Shown in pieces: positions 2,334 through 51,612 of a stretch of DNA of 64,000 nucleotides. Origin of the DNA: Candidatus Rokuibacteriota bacterium (GTDB taxonomy: Bacteria > Methylomirabilota > Methylomirabilia > Rokubacteriales > CSP1-6); NCBI GenBank assembly GCA_003220535.1, contig QHSU01000064.1:62001-126000 (forward strand). Direction: 5' to 3'. Made by a program: the position numbers and the translations under genes. Within the stretch, counting starts at the first letter, position 1; the number at the start of each line of letters is the position of its first letter. The notes below the pieces were generated by a model. That model did not search any database, was not told the origin of the DNA, and saw nothing but the letters and a program-made list of their open reading frames with translations.

Positions 2334-2878
2334 CACTTGCCTCCCTTGCCGCCGCCATGAGCCGCAGCGCCCTCAGAGCCGTTCGAGCCGGCTCCGAACG
2401 CGTTGGATCTCCTGTTGCCATTGCCGCCGGCGGTCGCGCCTTGACTGGCGTCGGCGTTGCCGTCGGCGATCCCCGCCGCCTTCCCGCTCGAGCTCGGCCC
2501 CGAGACGATGCGGCCGGACGCCGTTGTCACGACGCCATGGGTGGAGTGGTTGCCGACCACCTGCCCGAGATTCTTCTCCTGCACGAGCCCCTGCGCCTTC
2601 ATGTCCTTGAAGACCTGGCCCCATCCCTGACCGCTCTGCTTCTTCGCCGCGATCTGGTCGAGCGTGAGCGGAGTGACGGGCGTCGTCGTTTCGGTGTTCT
2701 GCGCCTGGAACAAGGCGCTGGCGACCGTCTGGTTTCCGGGCGAGAGCTTGTCGAATGCCCCGGCGGTCTTCGGCGGGGACGTGCTGGACGTCCTCAGCTT
2801 CGACTGGGCCAAGGCGGCCGATGCGGCAACGCCCAGGGCCAGGACCGCGACGACGAGCGCGACGACGCGACGAGACAT
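2333..2878 (-). CDS. Exported protein with Gly/Ser-rich tail, unknown function
   Basis: 181 residues. Signal peptide MSRRVVALVVAVLALGVAASAALA is followed by a mature region with a short ordered block (LTLDQIAAKKQSGQGWGQVF, about 92-111) and a long low-complexity Gly/Asn/Ser/Ala tail. The ordered block resembles short motifs of uncharacterised exported proteins; I do not recognise a named family. It is the middle gene of a minus-strand set of three envelope proteins and couples to the glycine-zipper gene by a TGATG overlap. Confidence 0.65.
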   Translation of the reverse strand: MSRRVVALVVAVLALGVAASAALAQSKLRTSSTSPPKTAGAFDKLSPGNQTVASALFQAQNTETTTPVTPLTLDQIAAKKQSGQGWGQVFKDMKAQGLVQEKNLGQVVGNHSTHGVVTTASGRIVSGPSSSGKAAGIADGNADASQGATAGGNGNRRSNAFGAGSNGSEGAAAHGGGKGGK

Positions 2879-2890
2879 CCAGGTCGCCTC

Positions 2891-3340
2891 TTATTTCCCG
2901 GCCCGGCTGATGGCGGACACCTGGGCGACGCTCCGCTCGGTCTGCGCGACGATCTCGCCCGCCGTCGCACGATCCCGGAAGAACCACCCGCGCCTGGCAT
3001 TGACTCGCATGCGGGTCAGCCGCGACGTCAAACGTTCGAGCTCGATGTCGATCGTGCGGTCGGCCGCCAGCGCCACGAGATGCCGGCCTTCCGCAGTGGC
3101 GTCGTCGGTCTGAACCGTGATGGCCATGCGCTTGAGCGCCGAGAGCGTCGCCCGACGCATGTCGTCGACCGGCGTGGAGAACGTGCGATACGCGACTGAG
3201 TCCAGCGTGTACGAGGTCCCCGTGCCCCCGGCGACGCCGGCGCCCGACCCGAGCGCCGTCAGGCCCACCGCCGCACACCCCTGGGTACCCAGAAGGATTC
3301 CGCCGGCGACGGCCAACACCCGCGTTACGTGGCTGAGCAT
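2891..3340 (-). CDS. DUF3568-like lipoprotein
   Basis: 149 residues. A lipoprotein signal peptide ends in LLGTQGC (lipid-modified Cys near residue 22), followed by AAVGLTALGSGAG and a domain with TFSTPVDDMRRATLSALKRM, the pattern of DUF3568 outer-membrane-type lipoproteins. The ATG has GGAG eight bases upstream. First gene of the minus-strand envelope cluster (3340 to 1806). No catalytic motif is seen; a structural or chaperone-like envelope role is only a guess. Confidence 0.7.
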   Translation of the reverse strand: MLSHVTRVLAVAGGILLGTQGCAAVGLTALGSGAGVAGGTGTSYTLDSVAYRTFSTPVDDMRRATLSALKRMAITVQTDDATAEGRHLVALAADRTIDIELERLTSRLTRMRVNARRGWFFRDRATAGEIVAQTERSVAQVSAISRAGK

Positions 3341-3529: not shown

Positions 3530-5041
3530 GTGACCGATCTCGAGAACCTGGTCGGCGAGCGCCTGATGTTTGGCCTGGCCGGGCCGAAGCTCACCGACAC
3601 GGACGTCCGCCTCTTCCGCGACACGCGCGCCGCCGGGCTCATCCTGTATCGGCGGAACTTCGAGACGCCGGAGCAGCACAGCCGGCTGCTGGACGATCTC
3701 GAGTCGGCTCTCGGCCGTCGCCTGCTCGTCGCCACCGATCACGAGGGCGGCCGCATCGTCATGCTCGGCCAGGCGACGACGATTTTCCCCGACAACCTCG
3801 CGGTGGGGACCGCCGGCGACGAGGCCTTTGCGTATCACCAGGGTCTCTTTGAGGCGCGGGAGCTACGCCGACTGGGAGTGGACGTGAATTTCGCTCCGGT
3901 GCTCGACGTCCTCACGGAGCGCTACAGCCCGAACATCGGGATCCGCTCCTATGGCAAAGACCCGTCCGTGGTCACGAGCTACGGCCTGGCGCGCATCAAG
4001 GGCATGCAGAAGGGCGGGGTCTCGGCGTGCGCCAAGCACTTCCCCGGCAAGGGGCACTCCCCCCTCGACGCCCATCTTCGACTGCCCACCATCGATTCGA
4101 CGTGGGCCGAGATGCAGGCGACGCATCTGCCGCCGTTCCTCGCCGCGGTCGCCGAAGGCATCGACTGCCTGATGACGAGCCATCCTGTGTACTCGAATCT
4201 CGACCCGACGCGCGTGCCGGCGACCTTCTCGCGGCGCATCGTCCACGACTGTCTGCGCGAGGAGATCCGGTTCGGAGGCGTCATCGTCTCGGATGATCTC
4301 GAGATGGGCGCCATCGGCGAGACGTGCCCGATCGGCGAGGCGGTGGTGCGAGCGGCGGCGGCCGGCCACGATCTGTTGCTCGTCTGCCACACGGAGCCAG
4401 CCCAGCGCGCCGCGGCGGTTGCGCTCCTGGAGGCGTACCGGTCGGGCACGCTCCCGATCCGCGACCTCGAGGCGGCGGCCGAGCGTGTGCGCCGTCTCCG
4501 CGAGCGCCGGACGGCCCGCTTCGAGGGTGGGCCGCCCGCGGCGGAGCCCGACGCCGGGCCGCTCGCGCGGGCAATCGCAACGCGCGCCGTCACCGTCGTG
4601 GCACCCGGGCGTCCGGAGCTGCGGCGCGCGCTGAACGGGCGCGTCGGGGTCGTTTTCCCGCGCTTCTCCGATCTGGCGCCGCGGATCACCATCGAGCCCG
4701 AGGTCGCCGCCGAGGCGACGTACGTCGCCGACGCGTTCGGACGCGCGGGCATCGCGCCCCAGACGCGGCTCGTCGGCATCGAGCCGACCGACGCGGAGAT
4801 CGCGGAGGCGGGTGCGCTGGCCGAGGCGTCGGACGCGATCGTGCTGTTCCTGTTCGACGCCCATCTCTACGCGTCGAACGCGGCGCTGCTCGCCGAGCTT
4901 CAGAGGCGGGCGCGCGCGCTCGCCGTCGTGCTCCTGCGCGACCCGTACGACGCGAGCATGCTGGGGCCAGGTGTGCTCGGCATCACCGCCTACGGTTTCA
5001 GGAAGTGCCAGCTCGACGCGGCCATCGCCCGTCTCCTTTGA
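3530..5041 (+). CDS. nagZ: Beta-N-acetylglucosaminidase NagZ (glycoside hydrolase family 3)
   Basis: 503 residues. GH3 beta-hexosaminidase that removes GlcNAc from muropeptides. It shows ATDHEGGRIVML near 75-86, the KHFPGKGHSPLDAHL motif whose Asp and His (D-x-H) form the NagZ-specific acid/base dyad, and VIVSDDLEMGAI carrying the nucleophile Asp. A C-terminal extension of roughly 160 residues makes it longer than the ~340-residue E. coli enzyme, as in two-domain Bacillus-type NagZ. No signal peptide, so it is probably cytoplasmic. GTG at 3530 is chosen because TATAAT lies six bases upstream and the NagZ homology begins there; the frame is open further upstream but without homology. Confidence 0.88.
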   Translation: MTDLENLVGERLMFGLAGPKLTDTDVRLFRDTRAAGLILYRRNFETPEQHSRLLDDLESALGRRLLVATDHEGGRIVMLGQATTIFPDNLAVGTAGDEAFAYHQGLFEARELRRLGVDVNFAPVLDVLTERYSPNIGIRSYGKDPSVVTSYGLARIKGMQKGGVSACAKHFPGKGHSPLDAHLRLPTIDSTWAEMQATHLPPFLAAVAEGIDCLMTSHPVYSNLDPTRVPATFSRRIVHDCLREEIRFGGVIVSDDLEMGAIGETCPIGEAVVRAAAAGHDLLLVCHTEPAQRAAAVALLEAYRSGTLPIRDLEAAAERVRRLRERRTARFEGGPPAAEPDAGPLARAIATRAVTVVAPGRPELRRALNGRVGVVFPRFSDLAPRITIEPEVAAEATYVADAFGRAGIAPQTRLVGIEPTDAEIAEAGALAEASDAIVLFLFDAHLYASNAALLAELQRRARALAVVLLRDPYDASMLGPGVLGITAYGFRKCQLDAAIARLL

Positions 5042-6170: not shown

Positions 6171-7934
6171 GTGGGTCTAGGAACAGAAGGACAGCTTCTA
6201 GTCGATGGAGTCATCATCCTCGTTTACTTCGTCGCCATCACGGCCATCGGGTTGTACATGGGGCGACGGGAAAAGAGCCTGAACGACTTCGCGCTCGGAG
6301 GGCGGCGCGTGCCGTGGTGGGCCGTGATGGCCTCGATCATCGCGGCGGAAACCAGCGCGGCAACCTTCCTCGGCGCGCCCGGAGAGGGCTATACCAACAA
6401 GAGCTTCGCCTACGTGCAGCTCGTCCTTGGCCTCATCATCGGACGATTCGTCGTCGGCCACGTCTTCCTCAAGCCCTACTTCACGTACAAGGTCTTCACG
6501 GTCTACGATTATCTAGGCGTTCGCTTCGGCCCGTGGAGCAAGGGCTACGTCTCGGCTCTCTTTTTGTTCATGCGCACGCTGGCGTCGGGAACACGGCTCT
6601 TCATACCGTCGCTCGTGATGGTGCTCGCTTATCGCATGTTCGTCGCGGGTGGCCAGGTGCAATTCAGCCAACAGGCGGTCACAACCGTCGGTCCCTATCT
6701 GGTCGCGATCATCGTGCTCACCCTCGTCACGTGCCTCTATACGGCGGTCGGCGGCATCAAAGCGGTCATCTGGACGGACGTGATTCAGGCCTGCCTGATG
6801 TTCGGCGGAGCGCTGGTTGCGATCGGCACCCTGCTGCATCACGTCGGAGGACTGCGGGAGGCCTTTCAGGCGGTCCCCCAATTGGCCACCCATGAAGGCT
6901 ACTTCCTCCACGGGTTCGAATCGAGCGTCGTCGCGCGGTGGCAGGAACGCCACCATCTTGCGGCGATGGGCGTGTGGGACTACGTCAAGCTGCTCCTAGC
7001 GAGCGACTACACACTCTTTTCCGCGTTCATCGGGGCGACGCTGGGTAACATGGCCGCCTTCGGCACCGATCAGGACATGGTTCAGCGGATGCTGACAGCG
7101 GAAACTCACCAGAAGGCGCGCCGCAGCCTGATTACCGCAGCCTTCATGGACCTGCCGATCGCCTCAGCGTTCGTGTTCATCGGAATCCTGCTCTTCGCCT
7201 ACTACCAGAAGGATCCCACCTACCAGCCCACGGCCACGGCGGATGTCTTTGGCTCATATATCCTCAATGTCATGCCGGTGGGCATCCGCGGCCTGGTGCT
7301 GGCCGGTATCTTCGCCACCGCCATGGGCTCCTTTTCGGCGGCGCTCAACGCCCTGGCCACCGGCGCCACGAATGACTGGTATATCCGATGGGTTCGCGGC
7401 AAGGCCGAGGCGCACTACGTCCAGGCCGCGCGCTGGTTCACGGTCTTCTTCGCTGTGCTCATGATCGTCATCGCCGGTCTCTTCGCCTATGCGAAGGTGA
7501 CGAATCCAGATTTGAGAATCATTCCAGTCGTCCTTGGAATCGCCGGGTTCATTCTGGGCCCCATGCTCGGTGTCTTCCTCATCGGCATGTTCACGAAACG
7601 GCGCGGCTCCGACGCTGGAAACATGATCGCCATTTCCGCCGGGCTCCTCGCGACTGTCGTCGTCGGCAAGCTGGACATCACGATCCTGAACGCGGTGGCG
7701 CCGTTGTTCGGCATCGACGGTGTGTTCCAGCATCCCGCCGGCATTCCCGAAGTCTCGTTCACCTGGTGGGCCATGATCGGCGCGCTCGTCGTTTTTTGTG
7801 TCGGCATCCTCTTCCGTACACCGGACCAGGTACTGCGGTCTGCCGCCCGACATGCCGAAGAGGCTCAGATCGCCGACGACGTTCCGCTCGCCCTCCGCGG
7901 ATCGCCGGCGGAAGCAACCGTTGGGTCTTCTTGA
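6171..7934 (+). CDS. Sodium:solute symporter (SSS family)
   Basis: About 587 residues with roughly 13 membrane segments, opening with VDGVIILVYFVAITAIGLYM. SSS hallmarks include LNDFALGGRRVPWW, SIIAAETSAATFLG and GIRGLVLAGIFATAMGSFSAALNALAT, where the Na2-site Ser/Thr residues lie. GTG 6171 is preferred because AGGA lies five bases upstream and the first membrane helix follows; ATG 6120 is an in-frame alternative. TACGCT at 6093-6098 may be its own -10 box. Its position among murQ/namZ/nagZ and a sugar kinase suggests import of MurNAc, GlcNAc or their disaccharide, but the substrate cannot be read from sequence. Codon choice looks slightly less GC-biased than its neighbours. Confidence 0.85.
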   Translation: MGLGTEGQLLVDGVIILVYFVAITAIGLYMGRREKSLNDFALGGRRVPWWAVMASIIAAETSAATFLGAPGEGYTNKSFAYVQLVLGLIIGRFVVGHVFLKPYFTYKVFTVYDYLGVRFGPWSKGYVSALFLFMRTLASGTRLFIPSLVMVLAYRMFVAGGQVQFSQQAVTTVGPYLVAIIVLTLVTCLYTAVGGIKAVIWTDVIQACLMFGGALVAIGTLLHHVGGLREAFQAVPQLATHEGYFLHGFESSVVARWQERHHLAAMGVWDYVKLLLASDYTLFSAFIGATLGNMAAFGTDQDMVQRMLTAETHQKARRSLITAAFMDLPIASAFVFIGILLFAYYQKDPTYQPTATADVFGSYILNVMPVGIRGLVLAGIFATAMGSFSAALNALATGATNDWYIRWVRGKAEAHYVQAARWFTVFFAVLMIVIAGLFAYAKVTNPDLRIIPVVLGIAGFILGPMLGVFLIGMFTKRRGSDAGNMIAISAGLLATVVVGKLDITILNAVAPLFGIDGVFQHPAGIPEVSFTWWAMIGALVVFCVGILFRTPDQVLRSAARHAEEAQIADDVPLALRGSPAEATVGSS

Positions 7935-8027
7935 GTTCGCCCACGCGAAACGCGCGCCGACCGCCAGCAGAACGACCAACGAGAACGGTGTCGTCGGGCC
8001 CGCTGAGCACGGGCTGTCCTAAAACGG

Positions 8028-8063
8028 GACGGGGGCCGAGTTCTCGAAAACCCCGCCCCCGTC
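8028..8063 (-). terminator. Probable intrinsic terminator of the mlaC-like gene
   Basis: GACGGGGGC (8028-8036) pairs perfectly with GCCCCCGTC (8055-8063) around an 18-base loop. Read on the minus strand the stem is followed by CCGTTTTAGG, a short T run. It lies about 40 bases beyond the stop of the minus-strand gene at 8104 and also between two convergent genes. Confidence 0.45.
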
Positions 8064-8103
8064 ACTTCGAGCCGTTGGATGGGCGCTCGCCGCGCCTCGA
8101 GGA

Positions 8104-8736
8104 CTAGAGCTTCTTGCCTCCGCGCTCGGCCATGGTGGCCTCGAAGCTCTTCTTGCGCATGCGTTCCAGGAGCGCCGAGTAGGACTCCGCCTGGATGATC
8201 CGATCGAACTGGCTGCGATAGGTCGAGACGAAGCTCACGCCGTCGATCTGAAGGTCGTAGACGCGCCAGCGTCCATCCCGGAGATGGAGGCGGTAGTCGA
8301 GTGCAATCTCGCTGCGGCGGTCCGTGAGCACCTTCGACCGCACCGTGGCGTACCCCGCGTCGACCGCCTCACCAATATAGCTGATGCTCTCGCCCGCGTA
8401 TGCTTCGACCCGCGTGACATAGGAGCGCTCGAGCAATTCGGTGAAGAGCGCGACGAATTCGGCCTTCTCGTCGGCCGAGCGCGCAGCCCAGTGGCGAGAG
8501 AGCGTGCGCCGCGTCACTTCCTCGAAATCAAAGAGGTCGCGCGCGATCTTCCGCACCTCCGCACGCTTGTCGGCCCCCTGCCGGCTGGGTGTCGCCGACT
8601 CGGTTCTCGGGGCATCGGCGTCTTGCAACAGGCTCATGACTCGGCCGACCGCCGACTCGATGGTCTCCCGAGGGCCCATCGCGGGTGCCGCGACGGCCCC
8701 GGCCACCATGATCCACGCGGCGAGTGCCTTGCCCAT
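8104..8736 (-). CDS. MlaC-like phospholipid-binding / toluene-tolerance protein
   Basis: 210 residues with an N-terminal signal-like segment (MGKALAAWIMVAGAVAAPAMG). It matches the MlaC/Ttg2D family: ARDLFDFEEVTRRTLSRHW, the following FVALFTELLERSYVTRVE, then VDYRLHLRDGRWRVYDLQIDGVS-type strands. MlaC proteins shuttle phospholipids across the periplasm in Mla ABC systems. No mlaEFDB genes are next to it, so it is an orphan here. GGAGG lies upstream of the ATG. A hairpin with a T run follows the stop. Confidence 0.8.
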   Translation of the reverse strand: MGKALAAWIMVAGAVAAPAMGPRETIESAVGRVMSLLQDADAPRTESATPSRQGADKRAEVRKIARDLFDFEEVTRRTLSRHWAARSADEKAEFVALFTELLERSYVTRVEAYAGESISYIGEAVDAGYATVRSKVLTDRRSEIALDYRLHLRDGRWRVYDLQIDGVSFVSTYRSQFDRIIQAESYSALLERMRKKSFEATMAERGGKKL

Positions 8737-48673: not shown

Positions 48674-51025
48674 GTGTCGGCGCCGGCGGGCCGCATCGGA
48701 GCGCGCGTGAAACGCGGCGACGACCCGCGCCTGCTCACCGGGCGCGGCCGGTACGTGGACGACCTGACGCTGCCGCGCATGGTCCACGTCGCCTTCGTTC
48801 GCAGCGTTCACGCCCATGCGCGCCTCGCCCGCGTCGGTGTCGACGCCGCGCGCCGCGTGCCCGGCGTCGTCGGCGTGCTCAGCGGCGATGCCGTCGCCAG
48901 GCTCTGCAAGCCGTACCGCGGCATCCTCCTCCACTACAAGGGCATGAAGACGGGCGCCATGCTTCCGCTCGCCGTCGAGCGCGTGCTCTACGTCGGCGAA
49001 CCGATCGTGGCGATCGCCGCCGTGAGCCGGGCGGCCGCCGACGACGCCGCGGCGCTCGTCGACGTGCAGTACGAGCCGCTGCCCGCGGTGCTCACGCCCG
49101 ACGCAGCGCTCGCCGCCGGCGCGCCCCTGATCCACCCGGAGCTCGGCGACAATCTTCTCTACGAGACGCGACTCTCCGCCGGCGACGCCGACCGCGCGTT
49201 CGCCCGCGCTCACCGGACGTGGGCGCGCACGTTCACGACGGGCCGCCACACCGGCGTTCCGCTCGAGCCACGGGGCCTCGTCGCCGACTACGAGCCCGCG
49301 ACGCGCTCGCTCACGGTCTGGATCTCAACGCAGGTTCCGCACATGATGCAGGCGGTGCTCGCCGAGCTCTTCGACCTCCCCGAGCACCGTCTCCGCGTCA
49401 TCGCCCCCGATGTCGGCGGCAGCTTCGGCATCAAGATTCACGTCTATCAGGACGACATGGCCGCCTGCGCGATGGCCCTGAGGCTCGGTCGCCCCGTCAA
49501 GTTCGTCGCCGGCCGTCGCGAGTCCTTCCTGTCCGACATTCACGCGCGCGAGCAGACGATCCGTGTCGAGGTTGCGGCCGATGGCGACGGTATGCTGACG
49601 GCGATGCGGGCGTCGATCACGGCGGCGGTGGGGCCGTACTCCGCCTATCCCCGCTCGAGCGTGGTCGAGGGAGGCCAGGTGCTCCGTCTCCTCCCGGGCC
49701 CCTATCGCGTGCGCAACTACGACGCCGCCCTGCGCGTCGTGACGCAGAACAAGGTCGTCACCTCGCAGTACCGCGCCGTGGGACACCCGATCGCCACCGC
49801 CGTGACCGAGAGCATGATCGATCTGATCGCGCGCGATCTCGGACTCGACCCCGCCGAGGTGCGCCGCCGCAACCTCGTACGACCCGAAGAGCTCCCGTAC
49901 ACCTCGGCGACCGGCAACGTGTACGACAGCGGCAGCTACCACGCGGCGCTGGCACGTCTCCTGGACGTCGCGTCCTATGACCGCCTGCGACGGGAGCAGG
50001 CGACGGCCCGCGCGGAAGGACGGCATCTCGGAATCGGGCTCTCGTGCTTCGTCGAGCTGACCGGTCCGGGTGCCCAGTTCTACGGGGTCGGCGGCGCACC
50101 GATCTCGGGCCAGGAGGGGACGACGGTGCGCCTCGAGCCGGGTGGTGCCGTCACGGCGCTGGTCGGCGTCACCAACCAGGGGCAGGGCACCCACACGGCG
50201 CTCGCGCAGATCATCGCGGACGAGCTGGACATGCCGCTCGACCGTATCGCCGTGCTCTCCGGTGACACGGCCGTGGTGCCCTACGGCGGAGGCACCTGGG
50301 CGAGCCGCGGCATGCCGATCGGCGGCAGCGCCACCCTGCTCGCGGCGCGCGCGCTCGGCGAGCGGATCCGCACGGTCGCCGCGGCCCTCCTGGAGGCGCA
50401 CGTCGACGACCTGGAGCTGCGCGATGGACGCGCGATGGTCCGCGGCAGTCCCGAGCGCGGCCTGAGCTTCGGAGAGCTCGCCCGCACGGCCCACTTCCGG
50501 TCGAACGAGCTCCGAGGCGTGGAGCCGAGTCTCGAGGCGACCGTGCACTACACGAATCCAGCGGCGTGGACGTTCACCAACGGCGCGCACCTCGCCGTCG
50601 CCGAGGTGGACATCGAGACCGGTCGGGTCCAGGTGGTGCGGTACGTCGCCGTCGACGACTGCGGGCGGATCGTGAATCCGGCACTCGTGGAGGGCCAGGT
50701 CGCCGGCGGGATCGCCCAGGGACTCGGCGGAGCGCTCAGCGAGCATTGTCGCTATGACGACGCCGGGCAGCTCCTCTCCGCAACGCTGATGGACTACGCG
50801 GTGCCGACCTTCGTCGACGTTCCACCGCTCGAGATGCACCACCTCGAGACCCCCGCGCCGGGAATCGCCGGCGGCTTCAAGGGCGCCGGCGAGGCGGGAG
50901 CGACCGGGGCCCCCGCGGCGATCCTCAACGCGGTCAACGACGCGCTGGCGCCGCTCGGTGTGATGCTGACCGACCAGCCGATCACACCGGAGCGCGTGAT
51001 GGAGGCGCTCCGGCGGCGGAAATAG
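48674..51025 (+). CDS. Xanthine dehydrogenase/CoxL-family molybdopterin-binding large subunit
   Basis: 783 residues. Molybdenum hydroxylase large subunit: VKRGDDPRLLTGRGRYVDDL opening, VHVAFVRSVHAHARL, YVGEPIVAIAAVSRAAADDA, GGSFGIKIHVYQDD (molybdopterin contact), SQYRAVGHPIATAVTES (substrate-channel loop, not the AYRCSFR of CO dehydrogenase) and GAGEAGATGAPAAILNAVND with the catalytic Glu. The FAD and [2Fe-2S] subunits that normally accompany it are absent here. Aldehyde or heterocycle hydroxylation is likely; substrate unknown. Confidence 0.88.
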   Translation: MSAPAGRIGARVKRGDDPRLLTGRGRYVDDLTLPRMVHVAFVRSVHAHARLARVGVDAARRVPGVVGVLSGDAVARLCKPYRGILLHYKGMKTGAMLPLAVERVLYVGEPIVAIAAVSRAAADDAAALVDVQYEPLPAVLTPDAALAAGAPLIHPELGDNLLYETRLSAGDADRAFARAHRTWARTFTTGRHTGVPLEPRGLVADYEPATRSLTVWISTQVPHMMQAVLAELFDLPEHRLRVIAPDVGGSFGIKIHVYQDDMAACAMALRLGRPVKFVAGRRESFLSDIHAREQTIRVEVAADGDGMLTAMRASITAAVGPYSAYPRSSVVEGGQVLRLLPGPYRVRNYDAALRVVTQNKVVTSQYRAVGHPIATAVTESMIDLIARDLGLDPAEVRRRNLVRPEELPYTSATGNVYDSGSYHAALARLLDVASYDRLRREQATARAEGRHLGIGLSCFVELTGPGAQFYGVGGAPISGQEGTTVRLEPGGAVTALVGVTNQGQGTHTALAQIIADELDMPLDRIAVLSGDTAVVPYGGGTWASRGMPIGGSATLLAARALGERIRTVAAALLEAHVDDLELRDGRAMVRGSPERGLSFGELARTAHFRSNELRGVEPSLEATVHYTNPAAWTFTNGAHLAVAEVDIETGRVQVVRYVAVDDCGRIVNPALVEGQVAGGIAQGLGGALSEHCRYDDAGQLLSATLMDYAVPTFVDVPPLEMHHLETPAPGIAGGFKGAGEAGATGAPAAILNAVNDALAPLGVMLTDQPITPERVMEALRRRK

Positions 51026-51057: not shown

Positions 51058-51612
51058 ATGAGACCTTGGGTCCGTATCGCGAGCTTGACTGTGGGCCTCG
51101 TGGTCGCGGCGGTGATCGCGCCCCGGGCGGCCACTCCGCCCGACTTCGCAAGCATGCAGGTTCAGCCGTACACGCCGCCGAAACCGGCACCGGCCTTCGC
51201 GCTGCCGGATCTCGCCGGCAAGTCGGTCAGCCTCGCCGATCTTCGGGGCAAGGTCGTGATGCTCTTCTTCTGGGCCACCTGGTGACCGACCTGCCGGGAG
51301 GAGTTGCCTCCCGTCCAGAAGCTCCACCGAGATTTTCGCGGTAAGGGACTGGAAGTCCTGCTCATCGATTTCCGGGAGGACCCAGAGCGCGTCCGGCAGA
51401 CCGTCAGGGAGCGGGGCTACACCGCGCCGGTGCTGCTCGACGAGAGCGGCGACGTGACCGGGAAGGTGTACGGGGTCTGGGGCCCGCCGACGGTCTACAT
51501 CGTCGACCGCCAGGGACGGCTGGTCGGACGTGCCACCGGGCCGCGACCGTGGGACGGCCCGGCTGGACGAAGGTTCATCGAGGCGCTGCTCGCCGCACCC
51601 GCCACGCCCTGA
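51058..51612 (+). CDS. Periplasmic TlpA-like thioredoxin selenoprotein (TGA read as selenocysteine)
   Basis: 184 residues if the in-frame TGA at 51283-51285 is Sec (residue 76). The signal peptide (about 1-25, ending RAA) is followed by a redoxin domain: APAFALPDLAGKSVSLADL, GKVVMLFFWATW, then Sec-Pro-Thr-Cys (U76, C79) and REELPPVQKLHRDF, and the cis-Pro loop GPPTVYIVD. TGA stands exactly at the first Cys of the WCxxC motif; the frame is open and homologous on both sides. A hairpin at 51291-51318 resembles a bacterial SECIS. Without Sec it would be a 75-residue fragment plus a 102-residue frame from TTG 51304. Likely a periplasmic disulfide or peroxide reductase. No sel genes are in the window. 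Confidence 0.8.
51291..51318 (+). promoter_or_regulatory. SECIS-like hairpin downstream of the TGA
   Basis: Five bases after the TGA, CGGGAGG (51295-51301) pairs perfectly with CCTCCCG (51307-51313) around the loop AGTTG. Outside it, CTG (51291-51293) pairs with CAG (51316-51318), leaving an internal loop of C opposite TC. A GU-containing apical loop and an unpaired U near the stem are features SelB-bound bacterial SECIS elements share. The pairing is seen directly; the role is inferred. Confidence 0.6.

Follow-up and report, generated by a model that had tools for sequence, protein, structure and literature searches.

Redoxin-type selenoproteins have been described from ocean-sampling data. 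A UxxC thiol-disulfide isomerase-like selenoprotein from the Sargasso Sea (cd02966) and the Trx-like 1 and Prx-like 1 selenoproteins of the GOS catalogue are listed in the literature (PMC13188914, PMC1088965, PMC2398784). Neighbouring selenoprotein genes are also on record, and one of these papers describes ocean reads in which Prx selenoprotein genes lie next to SelW or Prx-like 2 (PMC2398784). According to a 2026 review, the selenoprotein-richest bacteria are mostly anaerobes, and one Methylomirabilota MAG is cited with 63 predicted selenoprotein genes (PMC13188914).

Here we describe a TlpA/ResA-type gene from a 64-kb window (the whole stretch of 64,000 nucleotides that was analysed), codon 76 of which, TGA, is on sequence grounds almost certainly read as selenocysteine (Sec, U). 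Judging by its relatives, a Sec-peroxiredoxin and a Sec-TlpA form a tandem unit throughout a phylum known from uncultured bacteria, and these loci are concrete, testable proteins behind a selenoprotein count such as 63.

The gene and its in-frame TGA codon

When TGA is translated as Sec, the plus-strand reading at 51058-51609 is 184 residues long; codon 76 is its only internal TGA, and a normal TGA stop at 51610-51612 terminates the gene (Table 1). The active site reads FFWATW-U-PTC (UxxC). According to the original prediction, the TGA at 51283-51285 takes the place of the first Cys of WCxxC in a TlpA-like thioredoxin, and this was confirmed by the in-frame translation and by conservation in relatives. 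The predicted splitting of the gene was found as well: mechanical gene calling cuts it into 75-aa and 102-aa pieces, which appear in the mechanical ORF list as a fragment at 51058..51285 and a TTG-started ORF at 51304..51612.

Table 1. Features of the selenoprotein locus, in window positions
Feature	Position	Strand	Evidence
Orphan molybdenum-hydroxylase large subunit (CoxL/XdhA-like)	48674..51025	+	32 bases upstream of selenoprotein gene
TlpA/ResA-type selenoprotein gene, 184 residues, UxxC	51058..51612	+	AhpC-TSA 97.7 bits, Redoxin 82.4 bits, conservation
Signal-peptide-like N terminus, residues 1-25	51058..51132	+	Hydrophobic stretch, by eye
TGA codon 76, predicted Sec, position 1 of WCxxC-type site	51283..51285	+	TGA in 48/48 loci at ≥55% identity
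Cys79 codon TGC, second UxxC position	51292..51294	+	TGC 43, TGT 9 among 52 TGA loci
Predicted SECIS hairpin: 7-bp stem 51295-51301/51307-51313, loop AGTTG 51302-51306	51295..51313	+	Folding, conservation, published constraints
Predicted cis-Pro codon, Pro144 of GPPT	51487..51489	+	P143, P144, T145 invariant, 14 rows

Both Pfam models listed in Table 1 match across the TGA with scores above gathering. An AlphaFold2 model calculated from 14 sequences (pLDDT 75.7) has as its best PDB match 3kcm, a thioredoxin structure from Geobacter metallireducens (40% identity), with ResA and TlpA next in rank, and a sequence search agrees in returning 3kcm, ResA and TlpA as solved relatives. Residues 1-6 and 12-21 of the modelled protein have pLDDT values below 50. 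Pro144 is presumably the cis-Pro residue, going by the anatomy of TlpA and ResA. None of the NCBIfam models for ResA, TlpA, DsbE and StoA reaches its curated cut-off (92.7 of 170 bits for ResA), and NF041054, a model of WAxxUGC ResA-like proteins, gives 65.5 bits where its cut-off is 300; the protein is covered by no NCBIfam model at cut-off. A generic scan through all six frames, on both strands of the window, looked for an in-frame TGA that is flanked on either side by open sequence with coding-like GC3 and is accompanied by a bacterial-SECIS-like hairpin; with thresholds set in knowledge of this case, 51283 was its sole match.

The UGA could in addition act as a selenium-dependent switch, whereby low selenium would leave only the 75-residue fragment and the protein would be lost. 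This is a general consequence of UGA/SECIS decoding and is not specific to this gene. Such a switch would be compatible with the selenoprotein explanation; we regard it as fairly unlikely.

Conservation of the TGA and gene neighbourhoods

The full 184-residue reading, searched against 95 phylum genomes, has matches in 93 of them (E ≤ 1e-20, among the matches listed). Codon 76 was extracted from 60 loci, drawn from the phylum match list and the window's own genome, and was TGA in 52, TGC in five and TGT in three. At 55% identity or above it is TGA in 48 of 48 loci (the window and 47/47 relatives), and these genes of the same build come from 42 of the 95 phylum genomes among the matches listed. 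Codon 79, three positions on, encodes Cys (TGC/TGT) in all 52 TGA loci. The 12 loci below 55% identity comprise eight with Cys, at most 48.8% identical, and four with TGA (39.8-50.7%), which fall into related groups. Two phylum matches (G090:C92 and G083:C24, 64%) and two from a scan of named genomes (L152 and L155) leave codon 76 uncovered and stand outside all TGA counts. A tree was built from 58 rows, the 60 minus two of the eight Cys loci (L025 and L027); in it a supported branch (99/99) parts all 52 TGA rows from six Cys rows.

The named-genome scan extends this pattern. Among its best 80 of 547 relatives, 26 share at least 55% identity, with titles naming Rokuibacteriota, Rokubacteria or Methylomirabilota; 24 of these cover codon 76, each with TGA, and the remaining 54 of the best 80 all have Cys there, in a scan whose first peptide pattern favours Cys genes because its alignment had C for U. 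The U/C pairs expected under the original prediction are thus present, with TGA in the subfamily versus mostly TGC/TGT in distant homologues. No Cys form of the subfamily was found at 55% identity or above among the 60 loci and the best 80 of 547 named-genome relatives, and selenium therefore looks fixed rather than optional. As sampled here, the subfamily is confined to a single phylum, whose bacteria are uncultured.

The window gene belongs to the supported branch A (99/96), which comprises eight loci, all from the window's genus, and occurs in eight of nine genomes of that genus among the matches listed; the genus also has B copies. A molybdenum-hydroxylase neighbour acting as redox partner had been hinted at in the original prediction. 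That the two genes are adjacent was confirmed, and the genus conserves this arrangement: the molybdenum subunit lies directly upstream in 8/8 A loci, that is, in the window and all seven congeneric ones. At L068 (genome G054, 4641-4819) it is reduced to a C-terminal piece before the selenoprotein gene. The best model for the molybdenum subunit is glyceraldehyde dehydrogenase alpha, below cut-off. In the A loci the two genes sit inside a conserved block that also holds a gene for a periplasmic-binding protein and, by eye, branched-chain-type transporter and acyl-CoA genes.

The partnership itself fared less well. In favour of a dedicated redox partner of the hydroxylase, the window and 7/7 congeneric A loci have the subunit or its C-terminal piece immediately before the selenoprotein gene, and co-transcription is likely in the window because only 32 bases separate the genes. 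However, an export signal is seen by eye on the redoxin and none on the molybdenum subunit, the rest of the subfamily lies mostly beside peroxiredoxin genes, and the flanking genes are not for electron-transfer subunits: one encodes a periplasmic-binding protein, the other a protein of 140 aa that matches no family. We consider such a partnership quite unlikely.

Branch B comprises 40 loci, 38 of which are informative in that 500 nt or more of upstream sequence is available. In 33 of the 38 the next gene upstream is of peroxiredoxin type and on the same strand; no peroxiredoxin match was found upstream in the other five, nor within about 1.5 kb in any of the eight A loci. The peroxidatic codon of the upstream gene is TGA in 31 loci and TGT in one, and lies outside the match in one; the motif is typically AFTGTUTKE. 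This peroxiredoxin matches AhpC-TSA and has a signal-like N terminus by eye, and the hairpins behind its TGA vary (14 of the 31 loci and the own-genome copy were inspected). The copy at L046 is matched in two separate pieces. The window's own genome carries a Sec-peroxiredoxin with TGA at C136:127359-127874, with no TlpA match beside it among the matches listed. In the accessible text of open PMC papers no mention of a Sec-Prx/Sec-TlpA tandem was found, and the arrangement seems unreported.

Loci with a Sec-peroxiredoxin upstream of the TlpA match include L078, L080, L084-L091, L093-L096 and L098-L101, among others. At L152 (about 2730-3258) the front of a Sec-peroxiredoxin joins the back of a TlpA gene with a change of frame, skipping the TlpA active site, through either a deletion or an assembly join. 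L076 (G000:C142, about 6400-8431) holds a possible multi-selenoprotein operon that runs from a small thioredoxin-like reading (APGUGKC) through a membrane protein that matches DsbD_TM at 29.8 bits (cut-off 27.1) and a GMVUNSC reading, which we take to be HMA/MerP-like, to a branch-B Sec-TlpA. The DsbD_TM protein, the HMA/MerP-like reading and the Sec-TlpA are likewise present at L077. The own genome (G000) has at least 13 redoxin places with TGA in an active-site motif (for example TPGU, RWUPYC and SWUGC), on C21, C64, C9, C39, C127, C121, C45, C116, C136 (two), C84, C130 and C142; these were found through redoxin similarity alone, in a bin rated 8% contaminated.

Decoding of the TGA and a proposed mechanism

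The stem of the predicted hairpin begins nine bases past the TGA. Bacterial SECIS criteria, as given in a review, are a loop of 3-9 nt, a stem of 4-16 bp, a G in the first two loop positions, a distance of 16-37 nt from the UGA and an MFE of at most -7.5 (PMC13188914). The hairpin falls within these published limits, with a 5-nt loop, a 7-bp stem, a loop start 16 nt after the TGA and an energy of -15.8 kcal/mol, and the MFE is at most -7.5 in 48/48 subfamily windows. The originally predicted 7-bp stem and AGTTG loop are present and conserved, whereas the basal CTG/CAG helix that went with them (51291-51293 with 51316-51318, five bases past the TGA) is not conserved, two of its three pairs forming in just nine and eight of 37 distinct windows.

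With the loop position fixed, a stem of at least 6 bp forms in 52/52 TGA loci (42 with seven consecutive pairs, ten with six), compared with 35 of 15,600 synonymous shuffles (0.22%), and at this position just 0-2 pairs form in the eight Cys homologues. The codon for the loop residue Leu83 is TTG in 39 and TTA in 13 of the 52 TGA loci and CTN in none, while elsewhere in the same 60 genes 46 of the 1,076 Leu codons (4.3%) are TTR. The 37 distinct subfamily windows all keep six of the seven stem pairs, and 31 of them keep the remaining one. In the fourth pair both sides change (G-C 15, G-T 14, A-T 8) through E/K and P/S codon changes; support from covariation comes from this one pair because five of the seven are invariant and one is kept in just 31 of 37. 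The folding energy of the 45-nt window gave a weak signal against synonymous shuffles (mean z -1.79, median p 0.027, largest p 0.64), and the fixed-position stem test was therefore relied on. The predicted element is a good bacterial SECIS under synonymous constraint.

All of the sel genes sought were present in the window's own genome: tRNA-Sec at C107:50131-50224 (69.8 bits, anticodon TCA), selB at C107:45484-47367 (354.3 bits), selA at C107:47409-48764 (592.7 bits) and selD, itself with an in-frame TGA, at C1:110596-111537. Of the 95 phylum genomes, 79 have a tRNA-Sec match (E ≤ 1e-9) and 84 a selB match (E ≤ 1e-60), the latter above cut-off in 83. Two tRNA-Sec matches each above cut-off were seen in G002, G026, G034 and G035. 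Of the 42 genomes with the selenoprotein gene, 34 have a tRNA-Sec match among the matches listed, and all eight others have a TGA-containing selD. Four of these eight also have selA and/or selB, some of them partial: G038, G052 and G054 carry both genes (selA as a fragment in G052), and G055 has a partial selA. In G004, G060, G076 and G087 the gene is present and searches for tRNA-Sec, selA and selB found none of them; these absences are likely to be bin or assembly gaps, although G087 is rated 100% complete. The notion that sel genes are strict companions of the selenoprotein gene was dropped, since four of the 42 genomes lack tRNA-Sec, selA and selB matches.

For decoding of the TGA as Trp, or by near-cognate readthrough, without selenium, no supporting point was found. 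Against it, the TGA sits at the catalytic Cys position and is followed by a SECIS-like hairpin, and TGA also serves as a stop because the selenoprotein gene itself ends in it; this reading is very improbable.

Relative to seven congeneric orthologues, dN/dS is 0.04-0.26 over codons 26-75 and 0.10-0.14 over codons 93-184, and relative to three wider relatives it is 0.15-0.25 downstream of the TGA. Purifying selection thus continues past the TGA, and the downstream half is evidently translated in frame. Disabling mutations in relatives, which would weigh against a selenoprotein, were seen in one case: G054:C226 (branch B, 66%) carries a TAG in addition to the TGA, and its C terminus deviates. 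Like the four genomes without tRNA-Sec, selA or selB matches, this counts against the selenoprotein in detail only. A pseudogene or sequencing error, with the TGA as a real stop, would take a single base change from the TGC or TGT of most distant homologues, but the identical TGA in 47/47 relatives at 55% identity or above argues strongly against it, as do the downstream selection, the synonymous constraint on the hairpin and the Sec machinery in the genome, leaving it a negligible chance. Together with other codon meanings, it was rejected on conservation, selection and SECIS constraint. The selenoprotein interpretation is supported by the Sec machinery, the U/C pairs, the SECIS constraint and the downstream purifying selection.

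For the selenoprotein we propose the following mechanism. The protein would be a thiol:disulfide oxidoreductase of the TlpA/ResA type, probably exported or membrane-anchored, with selenocysteine as its nucleophile (U76-P-T-C79). Its UGA would be decoded by SelB with Sec-tRNA-Sec, guided by the adjacent hairpin. The U76 selenolate may attack a substrate disulfide or an oxidised Sec/Cys, C79 would resolve the intermediate through a selenenylsulfide, and the electrons may be returned by a membrane protein of CcdA/DsbD type; two DsbD_TM places exist in the own genome. The roles of U76 and C79, export and re-reduction are presumed here from TlpA/ResA and selenothiol chemistry. The parent subfamily most likely reduces the exported-looking, usually Sec-bearing peroxiredoxin that is encoded directly upstream in most of the loci analysed. 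The tandem with a Sec-peroxiredoxin makes peroxide reduction the likeliest ancestral task, and the genus-level copy in the window is separated from the peroxiredoxin gene. We hold this joint explanation, an exported or anchored Sec-TlpA with SelB/hairpin decoding, a U76/C79 cycle and a parent subfamily that reduces the upstream peroxiredoxin, to be very probable. More tentatively, and with considerable doubt, it is possible that in Rokuibacteriota/Methylomirabilota an exported all-selenium peroxide-reducing chain runs from CcdA/DsbD through Sec-TlpA to the tandem Sec-peroxiredoxin, with the window's branch a duplicate of the Sec-TlpA that took on a new task beside the molybdenum hydroxylase gene.

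Comparison with described families

The protein resembles the TlpA, ResA and CcmG/DsbE reductases in fold, active-site position, signal-like N terminus and GxP loop. It differs from them in having Sec in place of the first Cys and in scoring under the named-family cut-offs. NF041054 is likewise ResA-like and its name refers to a Sec motif, but that motif is UGC and the profile has 354 positions.

A redoxin-type domain with Sec first in UxxC is shared with cd02966 and with GOS Trx-like 1 and Prx-like 1. Those families, compared here by their published descriptions, come from ocean-sampling data and have many or widespread Cys forms; in contrast, the subfamily described here showed no Cys form at 55% identity or above, and the members found come only from Rokuibacteriota/Methylomirabilota. 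The tandem is similar to the ocean Prx neighbours (PMC2398784) in that two redox selenoprotein genes are adjacent. The ocean cases are reported from ten, one and one reads and involve partners of other families, whereas the tandem has a TlpA-type UxxC partner and is seen in 31 assembled loci. Since UxxC TlpA-like selenoproteins were already catalogued, the genes described here represent a new subfamily within a known type.
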